Positions 5,560-64,000 of a stretch of DNA of 64,000 nucleotides are shown here, piece by piece. The DNA is taken from contig CM057144.1 of the NCBI GenBank assembly GCA_029964075.1, positions 2,317,281 to 2,381,280 of the forward strand, in the 5' to 3' direction. Position 1 is the stretch's first letter; each line of letters opens with the position of its first letter. The notes below the pieces were generated by a model, which ran no database searches, was not told the origin of the DNA, and worked only from the letters and a program-made list of their open reading frames with translations. Source of the DNA: Patiria pectinifera. Lineage: Eukaryota; Echinodermata; Asteroidea; Valvatida; Asterinidae. Both the position numbers and the translations under genes were made by a program.

Positions 5560-8500
5560 ATGATGACTTGCTCCCGATCATTTTTGCTTTGCCTCGAGGT
5601 GTACATTGGTAAGTAGAGGAATTTCATTCCCCAGTCCATCTCCGTTTGGCTGGCGAAGAGCATGTCCCTCAAAAAAATTCCATTGATGGGAACACAACAC
5701 CTGTCTCGTTTTTCTGGCTGAATCGGTTCGCTTTTATGACGGAGTAGCCTACACTAAAATTGCTGAATTGCTGAAACTGGGTTTTTCAGTCAACAGTCAA
5801 ATGTTTCATGATTGTTATATTTGTATAAGCCACCGATATCTGCCATTGCTGTTCCGTCCACGAAACCAATATTAGGATAATAAATTATGTTAATTTATTA
5901 GATGAATGAAGTGTGTACAGAATGCATCGTTGCGCATGTATTCCCGACACGTATCTAAACCAAGTCAATTATACTGGAGCACGGACTGAAAATTTGTACT
6001 GAATATCAAAGTGGTTAAAGCCAGAGATCCGCAGCCATTGATAAATGATATCCATTCGATAAAAGTCCTTTCGTGGAAATTCAGCACGATTTGTGTTCTA
6101 ATGAAACTTGAAAATTTAGGGAAGTAGTTTTAGCAATGCATATTTACACGGTTTTGGTCAAGTCGCGAGCGAGATCAGTAAGGGAATGTGAAGACAGAGA
6201 ATGAAAACGAGCAATTCCATTCTTGAAAGGGAGAATACAGGAAATATTCGTGAAACTGACAATCAAAAACAAGTCAACCAAGGGACTCAGAAACAAAGAA
6301 AAGAGAAATTTTGCTGAGGGATAAACTAAAGCTAGGAGGAAAAATCTGAGTAACAGGGTATTGAATTATGATCCGTTTCTTCCTGAATGTTTGTATATGG
6401 TGCATTTTAAATGTATGAAACAACAGTGTCAGTTACATCATGAAAGGTGAGCATCAGATATGGCATTGCTACCTTGATCGCAACCATATAGCCATAGACT
6501 GAGGACTGTTCGGCATTAATTTCAAAATACAAACTACTACCTCTCTCAACCTGTGTGTTAACGCATTTCTATGTAGAAATCTTTGTTTAAAATGATAAAC
6601 GAAATTTCAACGTCTTTCAGTTAAGTAAGAACCATGAGTGTCTTCAAACCTGCTCTAGGAGAACCTTTTGGAAATCGGTCACATTCAAGGAAGTTTAATT
6701 TACACAGTTTATAAATGACTTGTCCTAATCACGCATATATATTGTAAAGAATGACGTTTTCAAGGGCGGATCCAGGGGGGGGCCAAAGGGGGCCATGCCC
6801 CCCCCCCAAACGAAACCAATTTTTTTTTTATGTGACATCGCAATAAAGGCAGGCAATGAGTACGCCACCATCTTTTCCTCAAAAAACATTGGTTAAAGTG
6901 GTCAGAAATTGCCTCAGATCGCACCACAGACCATCTAGAATCCAAAAAGATTTCGGGGCCCTTAAGCGGGCCCCGAACTCCACGCCGTAATTTTTTTGAC
7001 CCACTTTTTTGGGGGACCAAAAGTTTTTTTGGCCTCCCAAAAAATTGTTTTCTGGATCCGCACTTTGACGTTTTCGAAATGCCGACGCGTCGTAGCAATT
7101 ATGTTCTTGCAGTGACTCCATTGCACGTGAAACTTTCACTTGCCCAGGAGAAGCTTTTGTAAAGTGCTGGCTAATTGTTTAAAAGTTTTTACGATCATCG
7201 CGATCATTTTGCTTAACGTGGATTCCCGCCATTCTTTTCTGGATGGTAATGTTTGTTTAACTGTTTTAAATAGATTGTTATGACGGCTCTCTTAATACCC
7301 CAAACAGGTGTTACCTGCGAGGTTGGCATTAGGACTGTGAGTGCCGTTACAACCCCTTCCACGGATGGGACTACACCCGTGATGACGACCCATTCTGCAA
7401 CCACGCCTCTTGCAACTGCCACCACGAGCGTTCCCTTGACCACCCAGGCCCCTAAAGGTACAACCCCAGAAGCTGGCCAAACAACTGGCATGACGCCTGG
7501 GAACCAGACCTTCACCACAGCCGTGGCCGGCAACTCTACCGAGAACACAACGGGTTCGACCGCCGGGCCAACTACCGCAGTCCCCCCGCCTGATACCCCA
7601 AGGTAAAACTGCGCCTCACTCATCCCCACTAGCGTTGTACTTCTAACATATTTCCTGAACTTCTCAGCTTATTGGATACATTTTTTGGTATGGCCAGTGA
7701 CCTGGGGTCGATCCTTGGGGTCAGCGTTTCAGTGTGTGCACGACCCGTGCGCACAAAATGTACGTATTTGCTGATGGCAGGTGACCTACACTTCGAAAAC
7801 ACTCTAGTTGTATTTGATTAGAAGGCAGTCAAACCGGTTACACACCTTTGTTCCGACACACTTATGTTGCGATACCCCTATGTTCCGACACTTCTGTGCT
7901 CCGTCTACACATGCTCCTATCCCTAACCCTAGCCCTCACCCTATTAACCCCTAAGCCAATCAGTAGTTTTAAATGGGAGCTACCTACTGGTCCCCATTTT
8001 GTAGGGGGCTGGGAAACAGTCTATCGCTTCATAGGCGCATATTCCGCTTTCGGCCACAGCCAACTTGGTCCCAACCACAGCCGACAAAATAGTCGACTAC
8101 ACTGGTCCAAACCGTGGCCTACTGAAGTTTAAAATTGCGCTTGAAATTGCGAATTGCTGCGCTTGCACCGAGGATTGGATGCGTCGGGGAAACACAGTCC
8201 GAAATGCAATCTAATGGATGAAGCGATTTGCGCATCTCTGTACCTCAGGGGCTGGCCTATAGCTTTCAAAACTGTCATCGTGATCCCGCATATTGAAACA
8301 GCCTTGCTTGTCATCCCCTGCAGAAGTGCTGTCCAAGCTAACGTTTTAGAGTGTTTTCCTCATACAGGTTCCAAGTCAACAATTCTGATGGCGAAGCTTG
8401 CATGTTGCTGAACTTCAACGCAACGTTGACAGTGAAATATCCGACGAATAACATGGGGGTAAGTGCATTGCTGTTGCATTTCCTGGTTGCCAAGACTTCC

Positions 8501-11500
8501 TTTAATTGTTATACATTGGGGAATATGATGGGCGGGGTCGGGGTCGGGTCGGGTCGGATTGGGCATGCAGGTTCGGGTTATAGATAGGCTGGGCTGGGCT
8601 GGGCTGAGCTGGCCTGGAATGGAATGGAATGGAATGGAATGAAACGGAATGGAATGGAAAGCAATGGAATGGAGAGGAATGGAATGGAAAGGAATGGAAT
8701 GGAATGGAATGGAATGGAATGGAATGGAATGGAATGGAATGGAATGAAACGGAATGGAATGGAAAGGAATGGAATGGAATGGAATGGAATGGAATGGAAT
8801 GGAATTGAATGGAATTGATTCGAGATTGGGTTAGATTGCGCAGGTTTTGGTTTGGATGCATCGGGTTGGGCTGGGTTGGGTTGGGCAGGTTTGAGGCATT
8901 CTTTTATTGGTCGGGAATTACGTTGGGTTGGGTATGCATGGGTTGTGTTAAACTGGACTTGGTTAGGTGGTTTGGGTTGGGTTGGGTTGGTGGGGTGGGG
9001 TGGGGTTGGGTGAGATTAGATTTAGTTGGGTTTGGGTGGAGTTAGGTGGTTGGGCTTGGTTCGATTCGGTGGGGTTTGGGTTTGCTTGGGCTCAGTTGGG
9101 TTAAGTTAGGTCGAGTTAATTGCGTTGAATTTGGTTTGGCTGGGTTGGGGAAAGATTGTCATTTATCAATCGTGAGCGATCACAGTGGCTATTCTCCTTC
9201 CGCTCCAGGTCCAAACAGCTAGGATTCCTATCATGAATTCAAACTATACAGTGGGATCATGCAACAACGGGACTCTGAGAAACTTCACCCTGTATTATCC
9301 AAGCAACAACACGTATTGTGCTTTCCTGACCCTGTTTTTCAACATGACTAGCAACACAACATACTACAACCGTGAAGGACTTTATCTTCGCTACATAGAG
9401 CCTTGCTTCCTGCCGGATGCAACCCAATACAGTATGTGTTTAATTTCCTAAACGTTTTTCAGCTCTAATGGCAACAAAGCTTTTAAATCTCACTGTCCCA
9501 TCCCCCACAAAAGAAATTGACCAAACCACCCTAACTCACCCATAAAACTGTAAGTACCAAATTGTAACTATCAAAAAAAGGAAACAAAGTACAAAACAAA
9601 AAATGTTTGTATGCGCTACGAATTTAGGAGTTAGGGGGCTTCCATTACACCTGTCACTATAAATCACACCGCCTCTGGTCCTGTGTCATTTTTTACGAGG
9701 CTCAGAGCGTTCGAGTGAGGATACAATTGCATTATGAAGGTCACTATTATTTTGCATTGTGACTTTAGCAAAATAGGAAATTCATATTTCAATTAACATC
9801 ACACCAAGTGAGTAACTGTATAATGTCATGCAAGACTTTCATGTAAGACCGCCAGAGCTTATCGTGCATTCGCATTTGTGTTTGTTTTAATAGTTCGATG
9901 TTCTGTTTTTTTATTGTAATATTACGGAATGCATTCCCAGTGGCTAGTGCTATATGGAAAAGCTTATAGTAAGACGGGAGAATGTTGTTCACTGAATTAA
10001 ACCAGTTTGTGTTCTTCTATACATGTATTTCATTTTAATGAATTGAAAAAAAACCTTTTTGTCTTTGTTTGTTCGTTGCAGATACTGTCACCGGAGGTCA
10101 CTTTAGTCCATCATATAGTGAGTTTTAATATTGCATGAAAAACACCAAGTGTTGACATGCAAAACCATGTCCCCTACATACTAAATACTGATGTTTATTA
10201 AATAACTGACATAAAGATCCTTGTCGTCTGATTGATGGAGCTAACATCACGAGACATTCATTATTACTCCCATTCACGCTCGTGTAGCAAGAAGGTTTTA
10301 TGAAATACGGACTCATTGGTGGTATTGCGCATGCTCATGCATAGATAACTGGGAGACCGGTCACGTGAGAAGGCTAATAACCAATAAAAGGGGAAGAGAT
10401 TTTTATACGAGTCTAATTTTCATTTGACACTGGGCGGAAAAAAATCCCATTCGCCCATGATGAAGAGGATTTATTATAGAATTGACATGCAGATTCTTGT
10501 CATTTGATTGGTGGAACTCACATCACGTGACATTCGTTATTGCTCCCATTCACGCCACGGGGCTAAAAAAACAAACCGTTCGCCCATGGAGACTGGGAAA
10601 TGCTATTAAACAGGCTTCTAAATTTTTGTTCCATGGCACGGTATTTGTGTGCAAATGTATATGCCAGTATGCGCGTTCAGCGTTGCGCAGAGCGCTTATT
10701 GTTCCAATGAGCCAGCGCTACAGAGTTGGGGTCAAACATTTTCGTGAAGAGTGGTTTGGAAGAGAGAAATACATTTTCCACCAATTTTCTATTGAAATAA
10801 AAGGTCAAATTTATCAAATGACAAGGATCTGTATGTCATTTATATAAAACAAATATTGAGTGGCTTAAGATTGTGAAATGGGAGGAATATTATCGCTCGG
10901 TAAAATCTGGACTTTCCCAGTTCACTCGGCTTCGACTCGTGTAATGGAAAAGTCCAGATTTTACCCTGCGATAATATTCCTCCCATTCCACTCTGAGCCA
11001 CGCAATATTAATAAACATGTATGAAAGTGTAGAAAATGTTAAAGCGACAATGGCATGAATTTGCACCGTAACCTATCTTGTGCAAATGTTCATTCCTCCG
11101 AAATGTATAGAAACGATGAGTAATCCTTGTTTTTTTAATGTACATTGCTTTTTTCAAACATTGAAAATGTTCCATACTTTTTTTCTGACAACTGAGGGCG
11201 CTGTTGCCGTGATGCCACTTTAGGTATCCTTTCTTCTGTTAAGGTGTTTTCCCAATTTGAACTCCTCAAATTTTGCTCATTGACAATGCGCAAGCACTGT
11301 GGATTAATCAATGTGTCCATTGACGCACGGTCGTGTTCTGAAACAACACCGAATCACCAAGAGTATTTCAATATGTTTGTTGGACGGTTTATGTGTTTGT
11401 TATTTATTTGTTTGTTTACAATTCATAGATGGGACCGTTGGCAAGAGCTTCAGGTGTCAGTCCATATCACAAAGTTCCAAAAAGCTTGGTCTGACCCTTG

Positions 11501-12452
11501 TGTTGGACGACGTCTTGATTCAACCTTTCGCTCAGAGTTCAGTGGACAAGGGAAGCTACGGCGAGAGTAAGTTGACAATTCAACATTTCACATTCACATT
11601 TCACACTTTCACATTTCAAACGAAATTGAAATTTTGAAATTGAAATTTGGAGTTTGTTTTGAAATTGAAATTTTGAAATCGAAATTTTGACATTTCAATC
11701 TCAATCGAACGAAGTGTTTGTAATTATTCAAAAGTAGCTAGCAGATAAAGCGGTAACACGTCTGTCCTATCAAGCAGAAGGGCGTCCGAATCATCAGCTT
11801 TCAGACAGCGTTCAGTGGACACTGCGTATGCATATTGGGTAGATGATGGGCAAAAACCCATCGATGAATAGCACTGAGGCATTTTGCGTCATGCCTTGTT
11901 TACCTGTATTGTGCGCTTACGAATTGGAGCCTCTGGGGACAAGAGCTAGCAATTTATCATAGAAAGGAGTACATGTAAACAAAATGACGTGGTGCCGTTA
12001 TGTTTATGGTCTATTGACACATCTCCTCGGCGACAATTTTATCATACAAACGGTAAAAAAAAATATTGCACATTGTACAGAATGACGCAAGTAATGAAGA
12101 TCAGCTAGCTTTGATTTTCCAAGTGTGGTACCTTCACTGACTTGAGAACAACCATTTAACGGATAGCAGAACTCTAGTGACGTTAGTCTTTTCCCATTTC
12201 TATGTTCTGTGAAATTAAACAGTTGAAACCTGTCCCAAGGCTCTACCAACTACACCGGTCCCCTCGACTCCGAAGCCCCATCCCCCGACCAAGCCCAGCC
12301 CCAGCAACGCGGGGAAGATTGCCGGAATCGTCATCGGCGTAGTGGCCGTTGTGGGCACCATCGTCGCCATAGCCGTGTACGTGGTGCGGAAGCGGCGGTA
12401 CAAGCCAGTAACCTACGGCAACCTCCTCGAGGATCCTCCTCGCGCCATATAG
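5560..12452 (+). CDS. Gene A: divergent CD68/LAMP-like mucin membrane protein
   Basis: Seven exons proposed: 5560-5608, 7308-7602, 8368-8458, 9209-9431, 10082-10117, 11429-11566 and 12223-12452, all with GT-AG borders and matching phases, giving about 353 residues. Exon 1 (MMTCSRSFLLCLEVYIG) is a weak signal peptide chosen because its donor and phase match genes C to H; it and the 36-base microexon are the least certain parts. Exon 2 is Thr/Pro-rich but has no 11-residue repeats. The LAMP domain shows NNSDGEACML, then GTVGKSFRCQ, VLIQPFAQ and GSYGES. Exon 6 has IETC, a Pro-rich stalk, a transmembrane helix with GIVIG, KRRYKP and the sorting motif YGNL. Exon 4 has two cysteines (TYCAF, EPCFL) absent from the paralogues, so an extra disulfide is possible. 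It is the most divergent complete copy, perhaps an older lineage. Family call firm, exact role unknown. Confidence 0.8.
6767..7067. repeat. Non-autonomous foldback element in gene A intron 1
   Basis: GCGGATCCAG at the left end is matched by CTGGATCCGC at the right end, with runs of G and C next to each (GGGGGGGCC and GGGGGACC). This is a MITE-like family; degenerate relatives lie at 47395-47500 and 48725-49125. It has no coding content of its own. Confidence 0.65.
8612..8816. repeat. GGAAT pentanucleotide satellite
   Basis: About 40 copies of GGAAT with occasional GAAAC, GAAAG and GAGAG variants, in gene A intron 3. The motif is the same as that of the human satellite II/III core, although nothing here implies a common origin. 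It gives spurious long open frames on both strands. Confidence 0.95.
8817..9150. repeat. Degenerate GGGTT/GGGCT G-rich tract
   Basis: The strand is rich in GGGTTGGGTTGGG and GGTGGGGTGGGG runs, following directly on the GGAAT satellite and also preceded by GGGCTGGGCTGGG. Several windows have four or more GGG runs, so G-quadruplex formation in DNA or pre-mRNA is possible. Confidence 0.75.
10120..10580. repeat. Dispersed repeat, two half-copies
   Basis: The stretch around 10198-10276 (GACATAAAGATCCTTGTCG, then TCATTATTACTCCCATTCAC) recurs in degenerate form around 10475-10555 (GACATGCAGATTCTTGTCA, then TCGTTATTGCTCCCATTCAC). The intervening 10295-10400 is matched in reverse complement at about 55420-55530 (TATTGCGCATGCTCATGCAT). 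This marks a mobile repeat present in introns and intergenic DNA. Confidence 0.7.
10852..11009. repeat. Long inverted repeat (foldback element)
   Basis: The left arm AATATTGAGTGGCTTAAG, then AATGGGAGGAATATTATCGC and TAAAATCTGGACTTT, is mirrored by AAAGTCCAGATTTTA, GCGATAATATTCCTCCCATT and GAGCCACGCAATATT. The loop is about 30 bases. It is a MITE-like hairpin in gene A between the microexon and exon 5 of the LAMP domain. Confidence 0.8.
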
Positions 12453-12455
12453 ACT

Positions 12456-12613: not shown

Positions 12614-12615
12614 CG

Positions 12616-15158: not shown

Positions 15159-17977
15159 GTGTTTTGAGTCTCAAGGTAGTGGAAGTTTGCCGTTCCTTTT
15201 TTGTGGGCGACCCTGTATACAATGTTATTACACTTCAAGAAACAAGGTGCTACAAGATGTAATTAAGATTGGACGACTCTTTGTCTTACAAATTCAGTTT
15301 TTAATCCTTTGATTGCAGCAGATTTGGCATTCAAACCATTGTAATATATAATAGTAACCGGAAATCTGTTGGTTCACAGACACTTCGAACGACCATCCCT
15401 GTGTCGTACAACGCCCGTGCACTCGGATATTGTGGCACCTCCGAGAGGAAGTTTATAATTGGTCGAAATAGCGCCACGCCTCCTATTAACTCGAGGGCTG
15501 CGATCACGTTCATTTTCCATCAGCCCACTGAAACGACGTATTCACTGTGGAAGCTTTTGGGTAGCTGGTATTACGAAGAGCCGTTCTTCGACAAGGATGC
15601 AGTAATGTATGGTGAGTTTCTTTTTAAAAATGTAGCCAATCTGAGAATCTTATAATTTGTGCTACGGGGGCTTTGAATTCTATGCATAATTATGTTTTAG
15701 TCAGCAGCCATTTTCGCTGGAATTATGTTGCGGTAATTCAGTAACAATTCAGTGGGGAAGTGTGGCCTAGCGGTTAGGGTTCGTGACTCATGATCAGATG
15801 GTCAGGGGTTCGAATCCAGCTGCTGGCCATACGTTGTGTCCTTGGGCAAGGCACTTTATCCCCACTTGCCTCTCTCTCCACCCAGGAGTATAAATGGGTA
15901 CCGGCATTAGCTTGGGAGTAACCTGCGATGGACTGGCATCCTGTCCAGGGGGAATAGAAATATTCTCAGTCGTTTCATGCCACTGAAACCGGAGATAAAC
16001 GCCGGCCTAATGGGCCATATAGGCTCGGGGCAGACTTTACTTTTACTTGAATTCAGTAACAACTGATGTACAACCATTCTTGTGGAATGAATTTACTGTG
16101 GATTCATAACATTAATGGCATGCACCGTGCTCCGAACGAGAAGCGGCTGGTGCCACTGTGATTGAATTGGGGCCGTGTGGAAGAAAACAATTACATGTGA
16201 TGTCAAAGATGTGAGCCCTCAGGCACACTTCTTATAACTACCCCAAATACCCAGAAGTTTATCCATCAGCTTGGATCCCAATTTCACAAACTCTGACGAA
16301 CTGACTAAGAATTCATTAAGGCCCGTGTGTTGCTGTATGGATTTTTCACGAGAGGGTCCTATTCGAAATAATATGAAACGGCAACATTTGAATCGGAATC
16401 TCTGGCAACAGAATTTATGATATACGAGACTACAAAATCCGAATTTGTCTATGTTTACTGAAAATGTATAGCATCCGCTGTGCTAAAACCTCAGCATGTT
16501 TGTGCACCCGACTCAGGTAAACTTGGTACCCTTGAGATGGACATGAACCTGATAAGCGGCACCGTGGGGAAGACGTTCAAGTGCCACGAGGTGGGCTATT
16601 CATGGACTATCAAAGAAACTGGAATGGAGGGGGTTTTTGTGTTCAAAAAACTCATCATGTTTCAGCCTTATGCCGACTTTTCAAAAGACAAGGGGAGCTT
16701 TGGAGAAGGTTAGTATTACCTAATAGTGGGTATTCTCTTCTGACCTAGAACTGCATGTCCCCTTCTCCAGCGCGTCGTGTGCCTGGCTATGGGCTTGCTT
16801 CGCCCAATGTCCTTGACAATATACTTCTCTCCTCATAAGTTCGGCTCTGTGTCGTTCTTGGGCATCAGACTTTCCTTCTACTTTCTAGTACCAACATTTA
16901 GAAGTGCAGTCGTACTTTGGCGGTAGTCGTGCATTCTTAAACACAATGCCTAATCCATTGTTCATCTCCTACCTATAACTTCATCCCTCATCCTAACATA
17001 ATATGGTCAGTTGTCCGTTTTGTCGTCTCTCTGACTTCAAGTTCTATTATCTTCATTTCTTCTCATTTCTTCTCATGTCGTCCCCCGTTTCATTCTCTCA
17101 TCTCCTCTCAACTCTTCTTGTCTAATCTGCAACCATCTTGCCTCATCCCGCTACTTTTCCTCTTCTCATCCTTTCTCTCCCTGTCATAGCAAATATAAGT
17201 ACTTTAATCTAGGCTCTGTCTTGTTTGGATCATTTTACACTTTCTTTTACGCTTTTCTACTGCACAGTGTACAGGGTGTTTCAATTAATTAATATGCGGC
17301 TCAGTTATGATAGAGGAAAACCCGTGTCTATCACAAGTCAGGCTACAAACATGTGTTAAACAATGACATCTTTGTCTCAGTTCGTGAATGGTGTCACTTG
17401 ACTGGAAATTTATCGGGAAATGAATATTGATTTGTGATTGACTGAGGTTAGTTGAAATGAAGGCCCATTCAATTCAGAGACAAAATTGTGTTTTGTCCCA
17501 ACTAATTTCTTAACTTATCGAGTTGACAGAGTTGCTGGGAACCAGCATTTCTGGGAGGATTGTGGAGTATAAAGGATGGTCGGACATAAGGACATTTTAT
17601 TCATTTCGTTGGCTGATGACTTGTCATCGACACGGCATTGTGATTACTTGATTGCAACTCCACTGGCCTTTTAAGCATCAAAACTGAATGTTGTTCTGTT
17701 CTCTTGTTTGTTTGTTTGAACAGTGGAAGATTGCGACCGACCCAAAACGACCGGCATGCCGCCCTCTACGGCGTTCCCGACCACTCGTTTCCTCCCCACT
17801 AAGCCAAGCAGTATCAACGTTGGCATGATTGTCGGTATAGTCGTCGGCACCTTTGCACTAGCCGTGATAGTCACCGGTCTTGCCTGCTACTTTGTGAGGA
17901 GGGCCAAGAAGAAAAAAGAAGTACATGTACCCTACGAACAGATCGTCAATAGTTCAGTGCCAACATTGGAGTGCTAA
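15159..17977 (+). CDS. Gene B: divergent LAMP-like membrane protein, 5' exons not found
   Basis: Four exons: 15159-15246, 15380-15611, 16517-16708 and 17724-17977. The first is exactly 88 bases, phase 2 to 0, as in genes C to H, although its sequence keeps only G-S, Y, T and N landmarks, so it rests mainly on splice signals and length. Exon 4 ends WYYEEPFFDKDAVMYG. Exon 5 contains GTVGKTFKCHEVG, IMFQPYADFSK and GSFGEG. Exon 6 has VEDC, a stalk, a helix with GIVVG, a very basic RRAKKKKE stretch and PYEQI, a YxxPhi motif like the LAMP2-type GYEQF, then ends in Cys. The signal peptide and mucin exons were not found, so it is either a gene with unrecognisable first exons or a 5'-truncated copy. 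Intron 4 contains a SINE. Confidence 0.75.
15748..16049 (+). mobile_element. tRNA-derived SINE with 13-bp target-site duplication
   Basis: The head carries pol III boxes: TGGCCTAGCGG (box A) and GGTTCGAATCC (box B). The body (CTTGGGCAAGGCACTTTATC, GGACTGGCATCCTGTCCAGG) is typical of marine invertebrate SINEs. The 13-base direct repeat AATTCAGTAACAA flanks it exactly at 15735-15747 and 16050-16062. The perfect duplication implies recent insertion into gene B intron 4. Confidence 0.9.
16709..17723 (+). other. Gene B intron 5
   Basis: This is an intron of about 1 kb with a pyrimidine-rich tract at 17030-17190 (repeated TTCTTCTCAT and CTCATC words). ACAGGGTGTTTCAATTAATT near 17270 resembles the end of a DNA transposon. 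No exon is seen in it. Confidence 0.5.
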
Positions 17978-18235
17978 TGGTCTCCTTTAATGCACATCAA
18001 ATTAGCCGAAATCGACTCAGGATCCTCGAAGACCCCAACTTCGATACCAACTTCAATCAAAAACATAACTCTAAATGGATCCTTCGAAATGGTCTATTAA
18101 GGAATAAGTATCTGTGTGCCTACCCACACACGCATCTTTGTAAACATCAGTAATCGTGGACCCCCTATAATGTTGTCCCTTACCCTCATGCCTTTGTTTG
18201 GACTCTAAACTTTTTAGCAAAGCTCCTGTTGGTTT

Positions 18236-19871: not shown

Positions 19872-24896
<5,025 letters not shown>

Positions 24897-39700: not shown

Positions 39701-40540
39701 TTTCCAAAAACTATTTGACATCCATTTTTGGTTAACTTTATTCAAAAGTGCACTTCTTTAAACATTTCAGGACAGCAGTCCTTTTCCGGACAACTGAGGG
39801 CGCTGGTGACGTTCAGTTAAGGGGTTTTCTGTTCGAAATTGTGAACCCAACAATATTGCTAATTGAAATCATTTGTGAGAAAAGTTTGCTAATAACTGCC
39901 CTACTGGCACAACAACGAATCGCCAAAGAACAAAACATATTACGACGACAAGACTATTGATGCTGAAATGGCTGTACCATTGAGGTTCCTGCCTGAAACA
40001 ATATCACACTTTTGCTCAATAATATGGAAATTCGCATCAGCATAAAAACCAAAAAGGCACCAAAACACCCTTGCAAATAGCAAAACGATAATTGCAAATA
40101 ATGTTTGTTGAGAAGCACAGGTGCATTTTCAAGGATGGCATTAAAAAAATACATTGCATGGAGCTTTAAGTCCTTTCCTTGCAATGTCATATTTTGGTTT
40201 AATTGTTCACAGCAACGTGCCGAAAAACTCCGTGAAATCAAATGCTTGAGAAAGTGATGAAAAAAAAAAACAATTCAATTCACGCCTGTGTTTTTCCCTT
40301 GTTGCAGTGGAGGAGTGCAAGACAAACCCGACGACCATGGAACCGGCCACCTCAACGTTCCCTCATCCCCCCACCAAGCCCAGCCCCAACAACGGGGGCA
40401 TGATCGCCGGCATAGTCATCGGTGTGTTGGCCTTTATCGCACTCATCGTTGGAATCGCCGTGTTCGTGGTCAGGAAGCGGAGGATGAAGGAAGCAGCCTA
40501 CGGCCACCTCGACGAGGAACACAAGGATTACGTTCACTAG
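33723..40540 (+). CDS. Gene E: CD68/LAMP-like mucin membrane protein with longest repeat array
   Basis: Six exons: 33723-33765, 34156-34798, 35263-35350, 36834-37101, 39256-39423 and 40308-40540, joining in frame to about 480 residues. Signal peptide MNVSALCLLLVVAG. The mucin exon has about twelve 11-residue units, most reading HSHPTTAPNTT and almost identical in DNA. The LAMP domain has NGSEVCMLFVFNATLKIKY, TIPVGGNVNRTG, YCEEELMR, WSYLEPFFPRNVKNYG, GTTFGCQTLYL, DHVMLQPYANR and VEECKTN, with all four cysteines. After the GIVIG helix the tail reads RKRRMKEAAYGHL and then eleven more residues with a second tyrosine (DYVH), so the YxxPhi motif is internal, unlike C and D. Intron 4 holds a ~1.1-kb MITE and a second repeat field. 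Confidence 0.93.
34225..34620 (+). repeat. 33-bp mucin tandem repeat of gene E
   Basis: About twelve head-to-tail units of 33 bases. The central ten or so differ at only a handful of positions, including silent ones, which points to very recent expansion or homogenisation. The first and last units carry Glu instead of His (HSEPTT), as if the array grew from within. Confidence 0.95.
34870..35095. repeat. Dispersed repeat shared with 55555-55765
   Basis: AGCCACGCCCCTTAGACAA, TTTTGTTTGTCTCAGAT, a GCGTCCATGTTTTGCAT word, GGACAATATTTCACGAGCTG and GCGATTCTATAC all recur in the same order downstream of gene G. It lies in gene E intron 2. Confidence 0.75.
37341..38465. mobile_element. Non-autonomous DNA transposon in gene E intron 4
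   Basis: The terminal inverted repeats CACTGTTAAAAA and TTTTTAACAGTG are each bordered by TA (37341-37342 and 38464-38465), as expected for TA-targeting Tc1/mariner-like insertion. The last ~250 bases carry repeated ACAGTAGAATC and CTGTTAATATACAG-like words, and the first ~100 their complements. I saw no transposase. Confidence 0.75.
38470..39090. repeat. Degenerate repeat field rich in CCACGGTT and ACGAAT words
   Basis: Short words (GACGGTTTACCA, CCACGGTTGTC, CTACGAATAA, CACGAATAAC, CGTAGGACATTCGTAG) recur on both strands at irregular spacing. In texture it is like the ACGTC array at the left end, but with a different core word. No period is obvious by eye. Confidence 0.55.
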
Positions 40541-51004: not shown

Positions 51005-54000
51005 ATGAATGCGTCTGTTGTTTTCCTTTTCCTCGTGGTAGCTGGAGGTAAGAGATATCGAAAGATCCTAGCTAGATTTTCATCATAGTCACAAAAGACA
51101 GTATTTTACAGGCAACTAGGAGGTCAACCATGATGCACTACAAGCTTAAGGAACTCATGGGTATAGAAAAAAATACTTTTCTTGGAGGGCTGGCGTAGCA
51201 AGGTATTTTTTATTGGGAGGGTAAAAAGTTTGTGAAAAGGGCACTCGCACATCCGTGCTGAAATTTACACAAGTGGGTTTTTTTTCCGGACACTTCGTAA
51301 AGTCAAAAAGTGGGGGGGGGGGAGGTTGGAGGAGGGGACTGGTACCAGCTTCTAATAACAACATGTTTAACTGAATGTTTTTCTTCTCCAGTACGACGAT
51401 CGACGGAGGGTATAATTATGAAGACATTCAAAGCACGCAATTATCTCGTACGTACGTCATGATATTACGTACGTTCTACGTAGTCTAAATATTACGCACG
51501 CACGTGATAATATTACATATACTCACGTGATACAACATACGTACGTTAACTTTCTTACGTATCTTGTACGTACGCGATAATATTACGTACGCACTTCACA
51601 ATATTACGTACGTGCGCAATACGAAGCAAAAATCTGGATGTTCCCTATCTTTCTTGGGTTTTTTGGTAGGTCATAGATTGTATCATGTTAACTTTACTTT
51701 TTCTTTTCTTCTTATACGTTAAATTTCAAATATTATCCTTTTTGTTTTACAGTTTACATGATTACTTTAAGTTTTTATCTTTAATTTATTTCTTTTAAGT
51801 TTCTATAGTATTTTATACGGGAAGTGGTTCAATTTCAATATTATAATAATAATATGTGTCTTCTTAATACAGAGTTCGCGTTTTGTTTAAATATCAAAAT
51901 TTAATTTATAGGGGCGACACTGACATTGTCAGCAACAACACCGACTGGCCCCACGACCCAACGTTCCACTACCAAAGCACAAAAGACGACCCATAGTCTT
52001 CCCACCACCGCACCGAAGACGACCCATAGTCGGCCCACCACCGCACCAAAGACGACCCATAGTCAGCCCACCACCGCACCGAAGACGACCCATACTCAGC
52101 CCACCACCTCACCAAAGACGACCGCTAGCCACACGCCCGAAAAACCAACCGAAACCCCGGCCGATACCACCGCTGCGGATGCTAATACGACATCCAATGC
52201 AACCGGTTCAACTGTTGGTGCCACTACACCGGCAAGCACTACCCGACCTGGACCAGAAAAGGTTATACCAAGGTATAAAGTGTCCATGAAGTTAATTTTT
52301 CGGAAGAACAAACGTTGTGCAACTTTCTTCTCCTCATAAATGTATGCAAACGCTTTTGACATCCCTTTATATTGGTTACTTTTATTGAAAAGCGCACATC
52401 TTCAAACATTTCCATGCTTTCGAGATAACTGAGGGCACTGTTGCTGTGGTGTTATTTCAGTAAGACGCTGTTCAGCTTTGCGTTTTCTGTTCAAATTATG
52501 AACCCCAAAAATTGCCTATTGAAAATAATTGCCAGAAAAAAAACAGCGGAATACCAAAGAAAAGAACATTTACGACAGCGCAATAACTAAAATTCTGTCT
52601 AATTTGGATGCTGAGAGCTCTGTAACATTTAGGTTTATGCCTGAAATGACATCAAACTTTTGCTCATGAATATGGAAATTTTCTTCAGCATAAAAACCGA
52701 AAAAAAGGCACATAAAGACCCTGGAACATGGCAAAACGAAAATTTAAAATAAGGTTAATTGGAACACACGTATGCACATATGCCTGAAGTGACATCACAA
52801 TTTTACTCATGAATATGGAAATTTTCAACATAAAAACCAGAAAGGCACAAAAACACCCTGAAACATGGCGAAACGAAAATTTAAAATAAGGTTAAGTGGG
52901 ACACACGGATGCATTTCCAAGGAATGCATTTTACAACATTTCATTGCATAAGTCATTTAAAGAACTTTTGGTTGGTATGAGACGTAACTTCAGCTAATTC
53001 GTCTAAGACTTAGGAAGCACCCTGGTTTTTCCGGGGGAAAATAACTGCTATAAAAAAAAATTAGGGTTATGAAATGTAACTAGTCATGCAAATGTTCTCG
53101 AGACCAAACGTTTCATTATTACGAAGAAGTTCAATCAAAATAAAAAAAATGACTTTCGCCAAATAATATTTCTGTCATGAATACCCTGAGTGATGTATTT
53201 TCGTTTTCGTATGTGCAGTATATATATAAGCTTGGGGATTTTCTGAATGACGTTCGTTTAAGACTAATTCGGGTTTTGGGTGGTTTTTTTTTATATATCT
53301 GTTAAAATCTTGTTTCAGCTACCAGTTTGAGAATGGCAGCGAGGTTATGATGTTGTTCGTCCTGAACGCAACGCTGAAAGTTAGATACAACACCACAAAC
53401 AATGAGGTGAGTGGCCATTTTTTATTGAACTCCTTACTGAATGTGTTTGGACAAACAGCGCCATCTACCCTTCATGCACGGAGCCAATAGGTGTCATCAG
53501 GATTAGTACATATACATTATAATGGAAAAAAAATTTGGTAAACACATACACCACCACTCCTGTAATCGCAGGTGCCAAGATGCTTGTTGTTGGTTCAAGA
53601 CGGGGGTATCAATTAATGAATAACATTATAAATCGCTGGTGTCACTTTAATTTACGTTTTTAGCCCATCAGCCTGGGGGTTTTGGTCGGTATCAAAATGA
53701 GGGGAATAATGGTCATTGTTATTTCTGGCAAGGTATGCACCCCTGTTGTTGGGAAATATGTGATAACATTGCAGCGGTGGCAGCTTTTTGCATGCTATCA
53801 CTTTTTCAAAAAAAAATGGCAGCCAAAAAATGCTTGTTACCACATATAATTAATCCTGTTCAAGCATATTGGCGGCCGTTTTGAAGAAAAACAATTAAAA
53901 GTTCCCTCATATTTCCCTCATTTCGATCTTGCTTTGTGCAGACTGGCGAGGTCACTATTCCCTTTGGCGGGAAAATCAACGCAACGGGAGTCGAGTGGAC

Positions 54001-55360
54001 TACAAATGGATCGGGTTGGACCCCCGATGATGTTCTTAGGGATTTTAGAATCGTGACATATTTTGATGTGCCGGATTCCAATTCAACCCGTGGTTTCTTG
54101 GGGTTGTGGCTCGATTTCCAGAGGAGCTTTCCGGGGCCAAACGTCCCAAAGTATCCCCTTTACAACCTTACTGTAACCGCCCTCTGGGGTTATTACGAAC
54201 CGATCTTCCCGGGAGATGTAGTGGACTACGGTAAGTTTTGAGCATCTCGTTGTTATTGAAGATTACATGAGGTCGTACCAAGTTTGTGTAACATGTGATA
54301 TCCTCAATGATAAGGTGATGTACCAAATTGAAAAACTAACTTACTGTACGCAATATACGACTAAGACTTGGTCAGGAACACTTCTATGGGAAGTGTTCCT
54401 GAAAAAAAACCTGTTAAATAGCAAATCCGGTGTAAGGTGATATGAACCGGCCTTGACTCGTCTTATATTCCGCAATATTTTGGCATGATATCTCAACTGT
54501 AATAAATGGCACCTCAAGAACTCAATATATTTAAAAAAAAAAAAAAAATTGGGGGGGGGGGGGGTTACTAAACTGCTTGAGCGTCTATTCACCGTTTCTT
54601 ATTCATATTTCTCCATCTTGTAAACAGGGACAGATGGATCCGCAGGGGTGCTGAATTTGTACACGGGTACAATAGGAAAGGCGTACAGGTGCGCAAACTG
54701 GACGATCACTAAAGGACCGGCAACTATCATTATGGATCACGTGATGTTACAGCCTTTTGCGGACTATGCAAATGGAACTTTCGGCGATGGTAAGGTCCCC
54801 TCCCCCCCCCCCCCCCCCCCAAAAGAAAAACACCAAAGGTCTCACGTTTATGGATATCGCTAAAGTACAAGTCGAGGCCACTCAAAGTTGTGGGCAATAA
54901 CTTAGAAAGAACAGTAGAAAATAAGTCATAGTGAAAGTAAGTACATGTTCTCATTCATGTTTTGGATTGTCAAATTATAGGGAGGAAGGAAGCACGATCC
55001 AGGAGTTACAAAGACAGTCGCCCACTAGACAAAATATCTAGACAGTTAATTTTTACTCAGAAATTATATTGTGCTAGGCAGTTTAATGAAATCCACTCCT
55101 AACCCCTTCTTTTTATTTTTTTTACAGAAGTGGAAGACTGTATGGAAAGCCCGACGACTATGACAACGCCTCATCCCCCCACCAAGCCCAGCCCCAACAA
55201 CGCGGGCATGATCGCCGGCATAGTCATCGGTGTGTTGGCCTTTATTGCCCTCATCTTAGGGATCGCCGTGTACGTGGTCAGGAAGCGGAGGGTGAAAGAG
55301 GTGTCTTATGGTAGCTTGGAAAGTGAAACGGCACGATTTTCACTAGATCAGCATCAGTAG
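51005..55360 (+). CDS. Gene G: CD68/LAMP-like mucin membrane protein, short mucin, lost disulfide
   Basis: Six exons: 51005-51047, 51912-52272, 53319-53406, 53942-54230, 54628-54789 and 55128-55360, joining in frame to about 391 residues, the shortest of C to H. Signal peptide MNASVVFLFLVVAG. Only four mucin repeats. In exon 3 the usual EVC is EVM, and in exon 4 the usual Cys position is Trp (GSGWTPDD), so the first LAMP disulfide is gone. The second pair stays (GKAYRCANW, VEDCMES). Exon 4 is longer than in C to F by an insert around RSFPGPNVPKYPLYN. After the GIVIG helix the tail RKRRVKEVSYGSL has a unique extension ending DQHQ. Paired with H by exon 3 to 5 sequence. Confidence 0.92.
51440..51620. 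repeat. ACGTACG / AATATTAC repeat field in gene G intron 1
   Basis: About six degenerate units of a TACGTACG word followed by a TGATAATATTACG word, rich in CpG and self-complementary. It is probably a small satellite. No coding content. Confidence 0.7.
52280..52960. repeat. Inserted repeat in gene G intron 2, shared with other introns
   Basis: GATAACTGAGGGCACTGTTG, GACGCTGTTCAGCTTTGCG, CTCATGAATATGGAAATTTT and AACATGGCAAAACGAAAATT match sequence in intron 5 of E (39640-40160) and F (47640-48110). A shorter match lies in gene A near 11090-11225. Gene H intron 2 lacks it but aligns on both sides. Its last third is itself duplicated in tandem (about 52640-52760 and 52790-52910). Confidence 0.75.
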
Positions 55361-57333: not shown

Positions 57334-60300
57334 ATGAATGCGTCTGTTCTTTGCCTTTTCCTTCTGGTAGCTGGAGGTAAGATGTTTCGAAGAGTCTAGT
57401 CGGATTATTCTCCTTAATGGCCGAGTCACATGAGGCAATTGTAGTGCAACTGGCTAGCAGGCAATCCAATGTACTACAAACTTTGGGAACCCTTTAGGGT
57501 ACTACTACTACTGGAAAGAATTATTTTTTTCCCGTCAATATACCAACATTCTTCGGGTTTCGAGGAATGTTGATATTGTTGGAGGAAAGGAAAGTAATTC
57601 ATTCTCGGGACTCCACTCGGAAACAAATCTTCGTTTTATTCTTGGAGTATTACAAATTCGCCACTTGTGACGAAACGCTTGAATTTGGTGCAACATATTA
57701 TTCCAGGGGAGTTTAATATTGGGGTCAGCATTTTGCTGCGGGTGTTCGAGCCTGTTATATACAGGATGAGTAAAAAAACAAAAACCCAAATGTCGGGACT
57801 ATTGTTGTAGTGAATATCTGCATGTAGCACTTTCACAATCTAGAGTATAAAACTCAATTCATAAGCTTTCTTTTAGTAGAAGAATCATTCAAATCACTCA
57901 TGTACTTGTCAAGTTACGGAATTTTAAACACAACCACCGTTTTCAATTAGTTCTGTCCACGGATCACAAAAAAGTGCGATTTTTTAGCAAAACGAAAACC
58001 ATTCACACACATCCCTGTGTGATTTGTTTTCATTTTGCTAAAAGAACACTTACCTTTTTGTGATCCGTGGACAGAATTTTAAAAAGGTGGTTGTGTTTAA
58101 AATTCCGTAACTTAAAAATATTACATGAGTGATTTGAACGATTCTTGTACTAAAAGAAAGCTTATGAATTGGGATTTCGTATCTCACATTTTGAAAGTGC
58201 TTCATGCAGAACTTCACTAAAACGGGTCTCAACATTCGGGTTTCGGGTTTTTTTTTAATTTACTCACCCTGTACACTAAATGAGACCCGACATACCTTAA
58301 CCAGACTAAAGTTGACTAGCTTCACAGTGACAGGTTGAATTTATTATTCCAAGACACAAGTGATAGGATTTTCAAAGTTCTGACTGTCCATAAATGTCAA
58401 AGCACTCTAAGCACAAAATGTACTTTTGTGGCCTCCTGCTAGACTTTGTCACGGAGTTCAAATATTTCTGGATTAATACAAAATAAACCCTAATTTCCCA
58501 CTGCCCAAACTAGACAAACAGTGGATATATAACAAATCTATGTGTTGTGCCTGTGAAATGGATGTCCTTACGCAGTTACATAATTTTCTTTTATGTAGTT
58601 TCTTATGTCCCGGAGTGTAAGTCGGTTTGAACATTGCCACTTGCCAAAATGGCTGTCATATAAGGTACTGCAATAATTCACTGGGTAGCCCTAATGTATG
58701 GTGATCGTACAGGACAGGTAACCGTCGCACTGAAAATAGAAAAATGAACTAAATGAGGCAGAATCTGACATTGAATTCCGTAGGTGAAACTCTCATTTTG
58801 ATGAGTTCCTTGTTTCAGGCATGGAGGAAGGAATAAACAAAACCCTCCGACGCAGAGCCCTGTTGTGGACTTAATTTTGTTAACTACCTTAATAAAAAAA
58901 ATTCCAACCAATTCTGGTGATCTTCCATCTAATCCTAGCCAGAGACATCCACTACGGATATATGCAGTCACCTTTAGCGTGTGACCCCGGGTTAGGCAAA
59001 TCTGAGCCCGACAACCTGGGCTGCCCATATACACGTGCACAAAACAAGGTCACTTGCGGGTAGCCAAGTGCACGACTTGACCACAGACTATGTATACAAC
59101 ATCTGTTTCCTGTCAATGACCTCCTTATTTATGGTCTACAGGCATGTCGAGATTGTGTACATATAGATACAGTGTTGTGTAGCTTCCTATGCTCAAACCA
59201 ATACAAGGCGCTAAATATCTAGGTCCCCGGAGGGACCCGTTACTGTAAGCGTGTTAGTAAATGGGCTTGGCTGCGTCGGAGGGTTGAAACGTTATGCGTT
59301 GGTAATAAAACCATTTTCACACTGAAGTACTCGAACGATCACGAACATTATGCGAGTTATACGGCAACGTAGGCTATTCGGAAAGGTTCGGAAACGAACG
59401 GGATCGTGCCCGTTTCATGATCACGTGAAGGTGGCCCCTCGTGACCAACGATTTAAGTCAGAGCATATACGTGGGAACAAGATTAGGATTGACGTCAACG
59501 ATCAGCAGACAATGATCATGGTGCACTATTGACCTCGCGCGTACATACTAACTGTCTTCTCTGAGGGCGCCATGCAACACCAACGATACGGGCGAACGAC
59601 TCGATACCAAACTCCAAATGAGGGCCAGGGGATGATTTAAAAAAACTGTTTCCTATCTCAGTTTGTTTACTTTGATAGACCCAATGAGAAATTTTAGACA
59701 CAGGAAGAATATTTGGGTGTTGCTTCAGAAATGAAAATGAATGATTTCAGAGCCTTAATTTTGTGCACGATTTGTTTTCTGTCTTTGGACCCATCTTTGT
59801 GAACAAAAACAATCAGTCCGTATTTTGGAACATTTGAACTGAATGCTAGTCATTCGGGGTTCCTTTTGTTGCGTTTCAAATTTAATTTATAGCGACGACA
59901 ATGACATTGGCAACAACGCCTACCCCTAAAACAACCGTCCATACCACTGCTGAACGTCCAACCACAGTTTCAAAGACGACCCATAGTCACCCCACTACCG
60001 CACCAAAGACGACCCATAGTCACCCCACTACTGCACCAAAGACGACCCATAGTCAGCCAACTACAGCACCAAAGACGACCCAAAGTCACCCAACTACTGC
60101 TGCAAAAACGACCCATAGTCGCCCCACTACTGCACCGAAGACGACCCATAGTCAGCCCACCACTGCACCGAAGACGACCCATAGTCAGCCCACCACTGCA
60201 CCGAAGACGACCCATAGTCGCCCCACCACTGCACCGAAGACGACCCATAGTCGCCCCACCACCGCACCGAAGACGACCGCTTACCACACGCCCGGAAACA

Positions 60301-62189
60301 CAACCGAAACCCCGACCCCTACCACCGCTGTGGTCGCTAATACCACATCCAATGAAACCGGTTCAACTGTTCGTACAACTACACCGGCAGGCACTACCAT
60401 TCCTAGACCAGAAAATGTTATACCCAGGTATGTTAAGTACTTGTGTTCGGCAGTAGACGTAACTTTAGCTAAATCCTTTAAGACCTTAATACCAAACACC
60501 CTGTCCTACTGAGAAAAAAAAATTGATAAATTGAATTTGTTTGGTAGGGTTATGCAATGGAACTGGTCATCCAAAAGATCGCGAGTCGAAAGATTTTATT
60601 ATTTCGAAGATTTATACATGTGTTGCAGTTCAAAAAACAGAAACAACTTTCACATTGTACGTCTGTCATGAATAGCCTGAGTAATGCATTCTCGTATTCA
60701 CACATGCTGAATATAAGCTTGAGGGCGTTTTTGAATGACGTCACTTTAAGCCTTTTCGTTTTTTTAGGTTCTACATATCTGTTCAAATTTCGTTTCAGTT
60801 ATCAGTTTAAGAATGGCAGCGAGGTGATGATGTTGTTCGTCCTGAACGCAACGCTGAAAATTAGATACAACACCACAAACAATGAGGTGAGTGGCCCTAT
60901 GTTTTATAATTACTGATTGTGTTTTTTAGGGGAGACGTTATAATAAGCGTTCAATGCCATTCTATAACAGGGCAAACAGAGCAATCTATAGTTCATACAT
61001 TGGTTTTCCCTAATATATGGTCTGGTTTGTTTTTGCAGACTGGCGAGGCTGTTATTCCCATCGGCGGGAAAATCAACGGAACGGAAGTCGAGTGGAATAC
61101 TAGTTTATCGAGATGGTCTGACGACGGAACACTCAGGTGGTTCAGGATTCTAACATATTTTAACGTGCCGGATTCCAACTCAAGCAGGGGTATGATGGGG
61201 TTGTGGCTCGATTTCCAACGGATATATCCCTGGCCAAACGTCCCAAAGTATCCTCTTTACAACTGTAGTGTGTTTCCCCTTTGGACGTATTCCGAACCGC
61301 TCTTCCCTAGAGATGTAGTGAACTACGGTAAGTTTCAAGGTCTTTTTTTGGGGGGGGGGGCATTGAATTAAGTCCCAGAAGTTTGCGTAGACTGTGATAC
61401 TGTGATAACTCGAAAATATATGATTGTGCGCAATGTTCCATTTTCCATTTGTTAACAGGAAAACAGGACTCCGCGAGGTTATTCAATGTGTACACGAGTA
61501 GAAGGGGAAGGACGTACAGCTGCTCAAACTGGACACTCACGGCAGGACCGGTGACAATCATTATGGATCACGTGAAATTACAGCCTTACGCAAACTTTGC
61601 AAATGGCACTTTCGGCAATGGTAAGGCCCCTCCACACCCCCCCCCCCCCAAAAAAACCGAAAATAAATAAATAAATCAGTCACATCGCTGAAACTTAACA
61701 CAAGACCACTGAAAATGTATCGGCTATTAATTTTAAAGAACAAGGGAAAATTTGAATAAATCACAGTGATAGATTTAGGTTTGATTGTCAAATTATAGAG
61801 AGGAATGAAGCAGGATTCAGGAGGACAGTCATCCCTTGACGAATATCTAGACATTTTATTTTTACTTGGAAATTATTTCGCACCAGACAGTTGACTCGAC
61901 ACCTGATCTGTAATGTTTCTTTACAGGAATAGACGACTGTATGGGAAACCCAACGACTATGGAGCCGACGACCATGAAGCCGGCTACAGCCAACGCGACC
62001 ATGGCCACCACGGCGTTCCCTACCAAGCCCAGCCCCAACAACGGGGGTATGATCGCCGGCATAGTCATCGGTGTGTTGGTCTTTGTCGTCCTCATCCTTG
62101 GAATCGCCGTGTTCGTGGTCAGGAAGCGGAGGATGAAGGAAGCACCCTACGGCCACCTGGACGAAGAACACAAGGATTACGTTCACTAG
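57334..62189 (+). CDS. Gene H: CD68/LAMP-like mucin membrane protein, lost disulfide
   Basis: Six exons: 57334-57376, 59893-60427, 60799-60886, 61039-61327, 61459-61620 and 61927-62189, joining in frame to 459 residues. Signal peptide MNASVLCLFLLVAG; mucin to about residue 190 with nine HS-H/Q/R-PTTAPKTT units; LAMP domain about 193-380; helix about 414-437; tail 438-459. As in G, exon 3 has EVMML instead of EVCML and exon 4 has SRWSDDG where others have Cys. The second pair remains (GRTYSCSNW, IDDCMGN). Exon 4 shares the long insert with G (IYPWPNVPKYPLYN). The tail RKRRMKEAPYGHL plus DEEHKDYVH is like E and F rather than G, so exon 6 and exons 3 to 5 have different nearest relatives. AATAAA lies near 62400. 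Confidence 0.93.
57760..58274. repeat. Well-preserved foldback MITE in gene H intron 1
   Basis: TACAGGATGAGTAAA at the left is mirrored by TTTACTCACCCTGTA at the right. The arms pair along most of the length (AAAACTCAATTCATAAGCTT with AAGCTTATGAATTGGGATTT) around a central TCACACACATCCCTGTGTGA palindrome. It is the best copy of the family also seen in gene C and between C and D. Confidence 0.85.
59970..60275 (+). repeat. 33-bp mucin tandem repeat of gene H
   Basis: There are nine units. The residue after Ser is His, Gln or Arg in an irregular order, while PTTAPKTT is nearly constant. One unit has Gln in place of the first His. Confidence 0.9.
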
Positions 62190-63904
62190 ATCAGCGTTGG
62201 TTAAGAGAGGAAAGCTGCAGGCTTGGACATTTTACACGGTCAGTGGGTAGTTCCCACAGCTGCTGCTTTTGTACAGTCCCGCTACCACACAAAGGCTGTG
62301 CAGTCATGCGGGACACTTGCTCTTGGTGTGTGTGGATCGAGGAATGTCCCCATTATAACCCGTCCTTAAAGGGAAAATACAACATTTGCGAGCATCGAAA
62401 AATAAAACTACCAAGTTTTTACAAAATACCTTACTAGGATGCTGGTAATGACAGTGTAAAGCATCCTGTAAAATTAGGGCACCTGGTGTGAAGTCATTTT
62501 CAAGAAAATTGTATTTTTGTACATATTTCCAGCGGTGGTCGGCCGACCAGCGTTGGAAAAACCTAACTATTTGTCAACCACTGCTCCAAATGTACCATTT
62601 TTTCAGTCCAAATTTTGTTTGCTATTGGTTACATGTTCCTGAACGGGTGCAGGCCAGCTAGACTGGTTCCCTTACCTTACAATTTTTTCGGCATCTATAA
62701 ATTGATCCACTTCATCTTCAGTTGAGTCAGGGAACCAGACTACTTGAACATTTGTCTTTTTTCTTGGTTTTCCAGCATTTTCGAACACAAAACTTCACAC
62801 ATGTCAGTGTAACAACATTTGATCTATTATACCAGCCTTTCAAATAGCTCATTTCTGAAAGTTACAGCAAAAGCTTAAGGGGTTATTAAGGCAGTGCAAA
62901 CTTGAGAAAGGCTGAATGGGTATAAATCTGACGATCAAGTGCTGTGATTTAATTATACATAATATTTCTAATAAAGAACATTTTTTATGACACTGACAGC
63001 AGATGAAATGGTGGCAGTTGTTGACTTACTGTAGGCGTTGTTTTGGAGGCAGGTTTCTAATACCGGTGGTTATTGTATAGGATTACCAAGTGAAATGAAC
63101 AACACATTATGTCCGCTATTAAAGCACAGGTGGTTTGATTTGAAGTCGAACTCGATCTGAGCCAATTATTGTAAGAACAAATACAAGAGAACTGTCGCCG
63201 CCAGGATGCAGAGGATACTCAACGGACAATGTGACTTGCTCATCCATGCCACCCTGGTCCAAAAACCACTCCCTCTAGTGTTCCTCGTCAGTCGTAATTC
63301 GCGGGTCTTAATAGTCTCCGATGAGCGCAAAGGTCTTTGAACATGCTCAAAACAATCGCAACACCTCTGCGCTCTGGCCAGGGCGCCGTAATGACGCAAC
63401 TCGGGCGCTGTGCGAGCGTGAATCGTGCGGCATGGCATTGAGGCAGCTTAGGCGCAAGGCTGTCGACCTAGTCTTCATGAGAAGGTAACTCGACTGCGAT
63501 GAACTTGTAGAATAATTTTTTTTAACTGGACTTTGTATTGACCGTTTATTTGATCGTGGTATTTATGCAGTGCAAGTGACGTCACATGAGCGTATTTTGG
63601 TCGAATAGAGAGCGCGACGCGAGCTACTAGGACGTATCAACAGCGAGCAGAGCGTAGTGTAGGCGCAGTGACAGCGCAGCGGCAGCGAATAGATCGAGTA
63701 ATTGGGCTTGACAGGGGCGCATAGAGAGGGAGTTGAACGCATCGTAAGCGCGGGAAGAGCACAGTATGAGCGTAGCTTGAGCTTCTTTGAGACAGAAGGG
63801 TTGTAATTTTATTGCGTCCTCGCTGCGATTGTTAAATTTATTGGGGGGGAAATGTTCGCCGTAAGGTCTCCTACGAGAGCGCATATAATGTGACAGGCCC
63901 TTTA
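62190..63904. repeat. Intergenic unit after gene H, second copy of the G-H spacer
   Basis: From about 62885 it follows the spacer after gene G nearly base for base to about 63260, then has about 365 extra bases (63262-63627) and rejoins it at CTACTAGGACGTATCAAC, running to GTGACAGGCCC. The extra stretch is either an insertion here or sequence deleted from the earlier copy. No exon is seen. Confidence 0.8.
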
Positions 63905-64000
63905 ACGTACAGTAAATACACCACGCATATAGATGAAAGGTTAAGTGCGCATACAAAAGCAGCAGGTCCAATGTCGGTACAGAATTGAGCAATATAGGCC
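63905..64000 (+). promoter_or_regulatory. Start of a ninth promoter block, cut by window edge
   Basis: ACAGTAAATACACCACG, GAAAGGTTAAGTGCGCATAC, GGTCCAATGTCGGTACAGAA and TTGAGCAATATAGGCC match gene H 57085-57180 in order. In H the start codon lies about 150 bases after the matching end point, so the next gene's first exon should begin shortly past this window. Confidence 0.8.

Follow-up and report, generated by a model that had tools for sequence, protein, structure and literature searches.

A tandem array of genes encoding mucin-type membrane proteins with a single LAMP domain occupies the stretch of DNA analysed here, a window of 64,000 nucleotides (nt) from the sea star Patiria pectinifera (C16:2317281-2381280), and runs beyond its right edge. 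Exon-level tblastn places eight LAMP-type genes in the window, in the order A+, B+, C-, D-, E+, F+, G+, H+, which bears out the eight related genes of the preliminary description, and the ninth promoter that it had noticed at the right edge is that of gene I (64159-70609), a ninth gene that is complete and whose exon 1 begins 159 bases beyond that edge (C16:2381439). The layout that had been proposed, a mucin region, a single LAMP domain, a helix and a YxxPhi tail, is found in A and C-I; the mucin of B was not located. At this locus the LAMP family has expanded in tandem in sea stars, and the expansion is read as an independent one. New here are the low divergence of the exon encoding stalk, helix and tail (exon 6) in 18 of 21 gene pairs, the patches of replacement changes between H and I, and the apparent loss of the first disulfide in G, H and I. 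Membrane anchors that are alike, combined with fast-changing outer patches, hint at recognition or phagosome-coat proteins that come in a varied set, as far as can be judged from sequence. We tentatively favour, at somewhat less than even probability, the reading that the genes encode diversifying endolysosomal or phagosomal mucin receptors, in which a shared anchor and sorting module is joined to outer domains that vary; phagocytic cells are their most likely site. The role as phagocyte or endolysosomal receptors that the preliminary description had raised is thus plausible. Coordinates are relative to the window, the gene models are known from genomic DNA and protein comparison, and the genome searched comprises 613.5 Mb in 1020 contigs.

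The single exon plan claimed for all eight genes is exact for six of them (C-H), close for A and unproven for B. Genes C-H have six exons each, with phases 1,2,0,1,1 and lengths of 43, 361-643, 88, 265-289, 159-177 and 215-263 nt, of which the 43-nt exon encodes the signal peptide and the 361-643-nt exon the mucin, followed by three LAMP exons and one stalk-helix-tail exon. Each complete gene is predicted to encode a type I glycoprotein with a signal peptide, a Thr/Pro mucin of variable length, a membrane-proximal LAMP domain, a helix and a YxxPhi tail. Two genes lie on the minus strand and share the tail VAYGNLQD, namely C (24896-24854, 24605-23996, 23068-22981, 22286-22022, 20992-20834, 20104-19872; 465 amino acids (aa)) and D (32890-32848, 32075-31466, 30789-30702, 29999-29735, 29135-28971, 28612-28398; 461 aa). 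On the plus strand are E (33723-33765, 34156-34798, 35263-35350, 36834-37101, 39256-39423, 40308-40540; 480 aa), F (43512-43554, 43676-44225, 45055-45142, 46055-46322, 47018-47194, 48304-48560; 460 aa), G (51005-51047, 51912-52272, 53319-53406, 53942-54230, 54628-54789, 55128-55360; 391 aa; tail VSYGSLESETARFSLDQHQ) and H (57334-57376, 59893-60427, 60799-60886, 61039-61327, 61459-61620, 61927-62189; 459 aa), whose exon 6 (61927..62189, with stalk, helix and YGHL tail) has its equivalents in the last exons of C-G. Gene A (plus strand; 5560-5608, 7308-7602, 8368-8458, 9209-9431, 10082-10117, 11429-11566, 12223-12452; 353 aa; tail VTYGNLLEDPPRAI) follows the plan of C-H with one extra 36-nt exon, giving seven exons with GT-AG borders, phases 1,2,0,1,1,1 and an open frame. 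For gene B, also on the plus strand, an open joined frame was obtained for the last three exons only (LAMP exons 15319-15611, 16517-16708, 17724-17977; tail ending in VPYEQIVNSSVPTLEC); the gene is divergent, the start phase of its first LAMP exon differs from that of exon 4 in the other genes, and no signal-type or mucin exon passed the upstream scans. About 100 bp ahead of exon 1 are common to C-I. Mucin length differs among copies, and the mucin of C-I is built on an 11-residue repeat. The E mucin (34230-34613) contains a 33-nt repeat of 11.6 copies that match at 97%, a higher rate than in any other 33-nt array listed. Two non-coding repeats lie within genes, a TGGAA array in an intron of A (8615-8815) and an AT run between exons 4 and 5 of C (21647-21805).

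Homologue searches returned proteins of Patiria miniata as the closest public relatives of the array genes, followed by those of Acanthaster planci; on this result amphioxus was rejected as the source of the DNA. Pairing by eye joins A, C, F, G and H to the P. miniata NCBI protein models P0006, P0002, P0001, P0005 and P0003, respectively, over nearly their full length and at 84-96% identity (A-P0006 90%, C-P0002 84.5%, G-P0005 96%), with P0003 starting at residue 18 of H, inside the mucin exon. Since these models align nearly throughout, the exon joins of A, C, F, G and H are supported. No protein among those returned by the homologue searches was assigned to B, D or E.

The proposed LAMP domain was assessed with the Pfam LAMP profile (PF01299, cut-off 27.2 bits) and with structures. 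In the profile scan of A-H, gene A exceeds the cut-off (30.7 bits), the matches to C, D, E and F are partial and fall short of it (12.8, 13.8, 18.7 and 16.4 bits, respectively) and none is obtained for B, G or H, so that the expected profile match holds for one gene, in part for four and not for the remainder. The F orthologue P0001 carries a precomputed PF01299.24 label, yet scores 17.0 bits with version.22; the sea-star proteins P0008 and P0009 score above the cut-off. A direct PF01299 search of the whole genome gave 0 matches and likewise 0 in all 14 controls, and is hence uninformative. Among solved chains, human LAMP1 is the top match both of the family profile (E-value 6.7e-7) and of the canonical sea-star profile (E-value 5.4e-16). 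The second match of the family profile, 9gos_A (E-value 0.00035), covers stalk and helix only, and a single-sequence PDB search with F returned chance-level matches only (best E-value 0.29). When the structures predicted for the orthologues of F and H were compared with solved chains (997 and 999 chains aligned), the LAMP1, LAMP2 and LAMP3 entries ranked above the others; the H-type model is the less certain, with a predicted local distance difference test score (pLDDT) of 38-90 in the LAMP blocks. Profile search and model comparison agree on the LAMP fold, as had been proposed, and a membrane-proximal LAMP beta-prism domain is predicted in the array proteins.

Within this domain, A, C, D, E and F align cysteines at the four LAMP positions, with two further cysteines in A (six in all) and one further in C. 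In G, H and I the second cysteine pair is kept but neither cysteine of the first pair is present, and H and I hold one other cysteine. In DC-LAMP, the first disulfide joins the two sheets, and the two bonds are termed completely conserved in the family, in the portion of the structural report available (PMC3409847). As G, H and I group with E, F, C and D in the LAMP-exon tree, we call them derived relatives, which appear to have lost the defining first disulfide.

The stalk-helix-tail exon has diverged less than the LAMP exons. In 18 of the 21 C-I pairs, exon 6 has a lower synonymous divergence (dS) than the LAMP exons, with ranges, excluding H-I, of 0.12-0.59 for exon 6 and 0.26-1.92 for the LAMP exons. 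In 500/500 bootstraps, exon 6 of H and I is nearer to F than to G, a placement that the LAMP exons give in 0/500, which suggests that the H/I lineage acquired an exon 6 of the E/F type by conversion. Gene conversion would keep this exon alike, with the consequence that the copies share a single sorting device. Several points weigh against conversion as the cause. The pairs G-H, G-I and H-I are exceptions to the lower exon-6 dS. A topology test on exon 6 alone did not reject the LAMP-exon tree (approximately unbiased p, p-AU, 0.35); this test does not support conversion as a tree conflict, and the claim rests on the dS contrast and the bootstraps. The GC content at third codon positions of exon 6 exceeds that of the LAMP exons (0.66-0.83 vs 0.56-0.64), so codon constraint could also lower exon-6 dS. 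Separately, exon 6 of P0002, the gene C orthologue, looks mosaic by eye, its first half resembling D and its second half P0001 and F, and its tail reads YGHLDEEHKDYVH where gene C has YGNLQD; either gene conversion or a mis-joined model would produce this.

Changes in the LAMP domain are clustered in the H-I pair, a tandem duplicate of ~6-7 kb whose longer blocks show 91% identity on the 5' side and 94-97% identity on the 3' side. The 5' flank of I within the window (63616..64000, plus strand) is 91% alike to the flank preceding H. Exon 3 is identical in the two genes, and all 15 changed LAMP codons are replacements, none silent. The changed codons all fall within LAMP codons 49-87 and 129-135, on which two plus-strand patches of gene H were defined: patch 1 in exon 4 (61090..61227, LAMP codons 47-92) and patch 2 at the start of exon 5 (61461..61493, LAMP codons 127-137). 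The F-orthologue model has eleven strands, a number matching S1-S11 of DC-LAMP, and by strand count patch 1 would cover the S4-S5 loop, S5 and S6 and patch 2 the start of S8, placing the changed sites on the back sheet. The DC-LAMP report describes S8, in the portion available, as belonging to a flexible S7-S8 hairpin (PMC3409847). The excess of replacement over silent change has p 0.041 (p 0.018 by simulation), and p 0.0036 against introns 2-4 (11/654 bases).

The patches defined on H-I were then applied to other comparisons. Orthologue differences are denser within them for F (p 0.003), C (p 0.015) and G (p 0.035), as are the differences between the paralogues E and F (p 0.0007). For H and I against P0003 the density (p 8.6e-7) is not independent of the patch definition; at sites where H and I agree, 6/9 further differences of P0003 fall inside the patches (p 0.009), and five patch sites show three states among H, I and P0003. 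Under the receptor reading, changing selection would act on a single sheet of the LAMP domain, the probable reason being contact of that sheet with a varying partner such as the surface of a microbe, cargo of the phagosome or another glycoprotein of the host.

This account of the patches meets several difficulties. The within-exon tests are weak (the p values of 0.041 and 0.018), and H-I is one of 21 pairs, chosen as the youngest. The intron test varies with the introns chosen, because introns 2-4 differ by 1.3-1.9% and introns 1 and 5 are far more diverged (10.8%, 267/2463, and 7.2%, 22/306, respectively); this makes the pair a mosaic, in which a conversion tract could have imported part of the changes. 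Between the paralogues C and D, patch density is not significantly raised (14/49 vs 21/124, p 0.096). The replacement-to-silent ratio (pN/pS) of patch 1 is 0.42 in G-H, 0.57 in G-I, 0.97 in E-F and 0.43 in C-D, and that of the exon 5 start is 0.73-2.06 in these four other pairs, so that patch density may partly reflect weak constraint. H and I could also be alleles set in series by the assembly, in which case the replacement excess would be allelic; against this, the duplicated block ends in unlike sequence on its 3' side.

Weak constraint is at the core of the main rival explanation, according to which these are ordinary lysosomal glycocalyx proteins multiplied in tandem and the patches are the relaxed surface of redundant copies, with no variable ligand. 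It draws on the ratio of replacement to silent divergence (dN/dS) over the LAMP exons, which is below 1 in 20/21 pairs, all except H-I, on the patch 1 ratios of 0.42-0.97, on the mucin length that varies between copies, and on canonical genes with a C-terminal YGNL on C17, next to which the array copies could be redundant. Relaxation predicts like silent and replacement rates, however, and the H-I pair has 15 replacement and 0 silent codons, together with the five patch sites in three states; we regard this explanation as a serious possibility, although we lean against it. Mucin repeats and clustered replacements would also fit reproductive or epithelial-coat mucins, for example of gametes or egg coats, changing fast from mating conflict and not from immunity. 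The combination of a LAMP domain with a YxxPhi tail is an endolysosomal layout, however, and makes such a role very improbable.

The cytoplasmic tails bear on the destination of the proteins. All eight complete genes (A, C-I) encode YGxL, in the variants YGNL, YGHL and YGSL, 9-10 residues on from the first residue of RKRR, and the motif in B is YEQI; the proteins thus have a single helix and a short tail bearing a putative YxxPhi lysosomal-sorting signal. Together with clathrin adaptors, YxxPhi would take the proteins off the cell surface and deliver them to the membranes of endosomes, lysosomes or phagosomes, as happens with LAMP1 and CD68. It counts against such sorting that all eight complete tails extend beyond YxxPhi and that the Gly of GYxxPhi is absent in A and C-I, where A, S, T or P precedes the tail Tyr. 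For LAMP1, the available part of a published LAMP history states that localisation needs the Tyr only and that the Gly influences routing (PMC9221867). The tails of Acanthaster P0004, P0007 and P0008 and of P. miniata P0009 read I/V-S-Y-G-N-L. By the standard definitions of the immunoreceptor tyrosine-based inhibitory motif (ITIM, here V-x-Y-G-N/S-L) and of the Grb2 pYxN pattern (here YGNL), such tails could instead belong to inhibitory or signalling receptors of the cell surface. The ITIM pattern occurs in four of the eight complete genes (A, C, D and G) and is matched by the four Acanthaster and P. miniata tails. The tails of E, F, H and I (A-x-Y-G-H-L...KDYVH) do not fit it, so the array would have to mix two signalling classes. 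The pattern is also short, YxxPhi already accounts for the tails, and P0008 and P0009, both above the Pfam cut-off, terminate in YGNL as lysosomal signals do. Hence, we consider a signalling role improbable.

Returning to diversifying endolysosomal receptors, we can put a more specific hypothesis, speculative and on balance rather unlikely, that the LAMP domain, in other lineages a conserved part of the lysosome coat, was recruited in sea stars as a variable recognition module, its anchor and sorting exon kept the same by conversion and one of its sheets rebuilt by diversifying selection and partly freed by the lost disulfide, yielding a repertoire of phagosomal or uptake receptors. LAMPs are coat proteins of the lysosome, and the LAMP fold was compared to the Ig domain by its crystallographers, in the available portion of their report (PMC3409847). 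If the hypothesis is true, a clustered, fast-changing LAMP array shows that this fold can act as a diversifying recognition unit. The array offers candidate echinoderm phagocyte markers and receptors, and a natural test for which LAMP-domain faces bind partners. If the patches are neutral, it is still an independent CD68-like layout outside vertebrates.

Beyond the window, 100 kb of flanking sequence (40 kb left and 60 kb right) contains no LAMP gene other than I. A further full LAMP copy past I was rejected: at 73.91-73.99 kb lies only a promoter-like stretch, 79% alike to the array promoter over 85 bp and without a first exon, perhaps the trace of a decayed tenth copy. The paralogue count for the full assembly, which the preliminary description had called for, gives at least 14 LAMP-type loci as assembled, 9 of them in the array. 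C17 carries an inverted pair of canonical mucin-LAMP genes (3.324-3.327 and 3.389-3.392 Mb), ~97% alike and ending in VSYGNL, which may be a duplicate or an assembly artefact, and C14 carries one LAMP-type gene. Two further LAMP-like loci, both divergent, lie on the minus strand at C16:8.126 and 8.134 Mb, the latter resting on weak matches; their tails are close to SYSGL and SYKSL. To the right of the window, at 87.7-89.2 kb (C16 ~2.4050-2.4065 Mb), is a transmembrane mucin gene in which no LAMP domain was seen. It has a signal-type exon, repeats of the TTKPTTAP type over several hundred residues, a helix and a tail end GYENLS (a LAMP-like GYxxPhi). A non-coding 225-base tandem repeat of 3.4 copies (2641-3402) lies left of the array. 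Among the open-licence literature matches listed, no echinoderm LAMP array appears, by title and start of abstract, and a term search in the main text of individual echinoderm papers found neither 'LAMP' nor 'CD68'.

CD68 (macrosialin), a synonym of LAMP4, has a mucin stretch and a YxxPhi tail. The array proteins resemble it in their mucin, single membrane-proximal LAMP domain, helix and short YxxPhi tail, and in the CD68-type layout the LAMP domain adjoins the helix, according to the portion of the DC-LAMP report available (PMC3409847). The match to vertebrate CD68 that had been claimed therefore stands for the layout and not for CD68 identity: LAMP1-4, common to all vertebrates, arose from one gene via two vertebrate genome duplications, as stated in the available part of the published LAMP history (PMC9221867), and on this history alone CD68 orthology is rejected. 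Because the LAMP1-4 split dates to those duplications, the array genes are at most co-orthologues of the whole LAMP family, and the array is read as an independent expansion. In contrast to CD68, a vertebrate gene, the sea-star genes form an array of nine, with the 11-residue mucin repeat in C-I, the fast-changing patches and, in G, H and I, the missing first-disulfide cysteines. With LAMP1, LAMP2 and DC-LAMP (LAMP3) the array shares the fold, as modelled in the F and H orthologues, and of the solved chains LAMP1 matches best in sequence; LAMP1 and LAMP2 have two LAMP domains and GYxxPhi, whereas the array proteins have one domain, lack the Gly and have longer tails. The SpTransformer genes of sea urchins are likewise clustered, repeat-bearing and fast-diversifying. 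To our knowledge they have no LAMP domain, helix or sorting tail, and the likeness is one of working principle, with no homology claimed. Also comparable are the canonical sea-star mucin-LAMPs (Patiria P0009, Acanthaster P0008 and the C17 pair), which share the YGNL core and, in the C17 pair, a LAMP part that is split alike, but which lie outside the array, have six cysteines and end their tails at YGNL.

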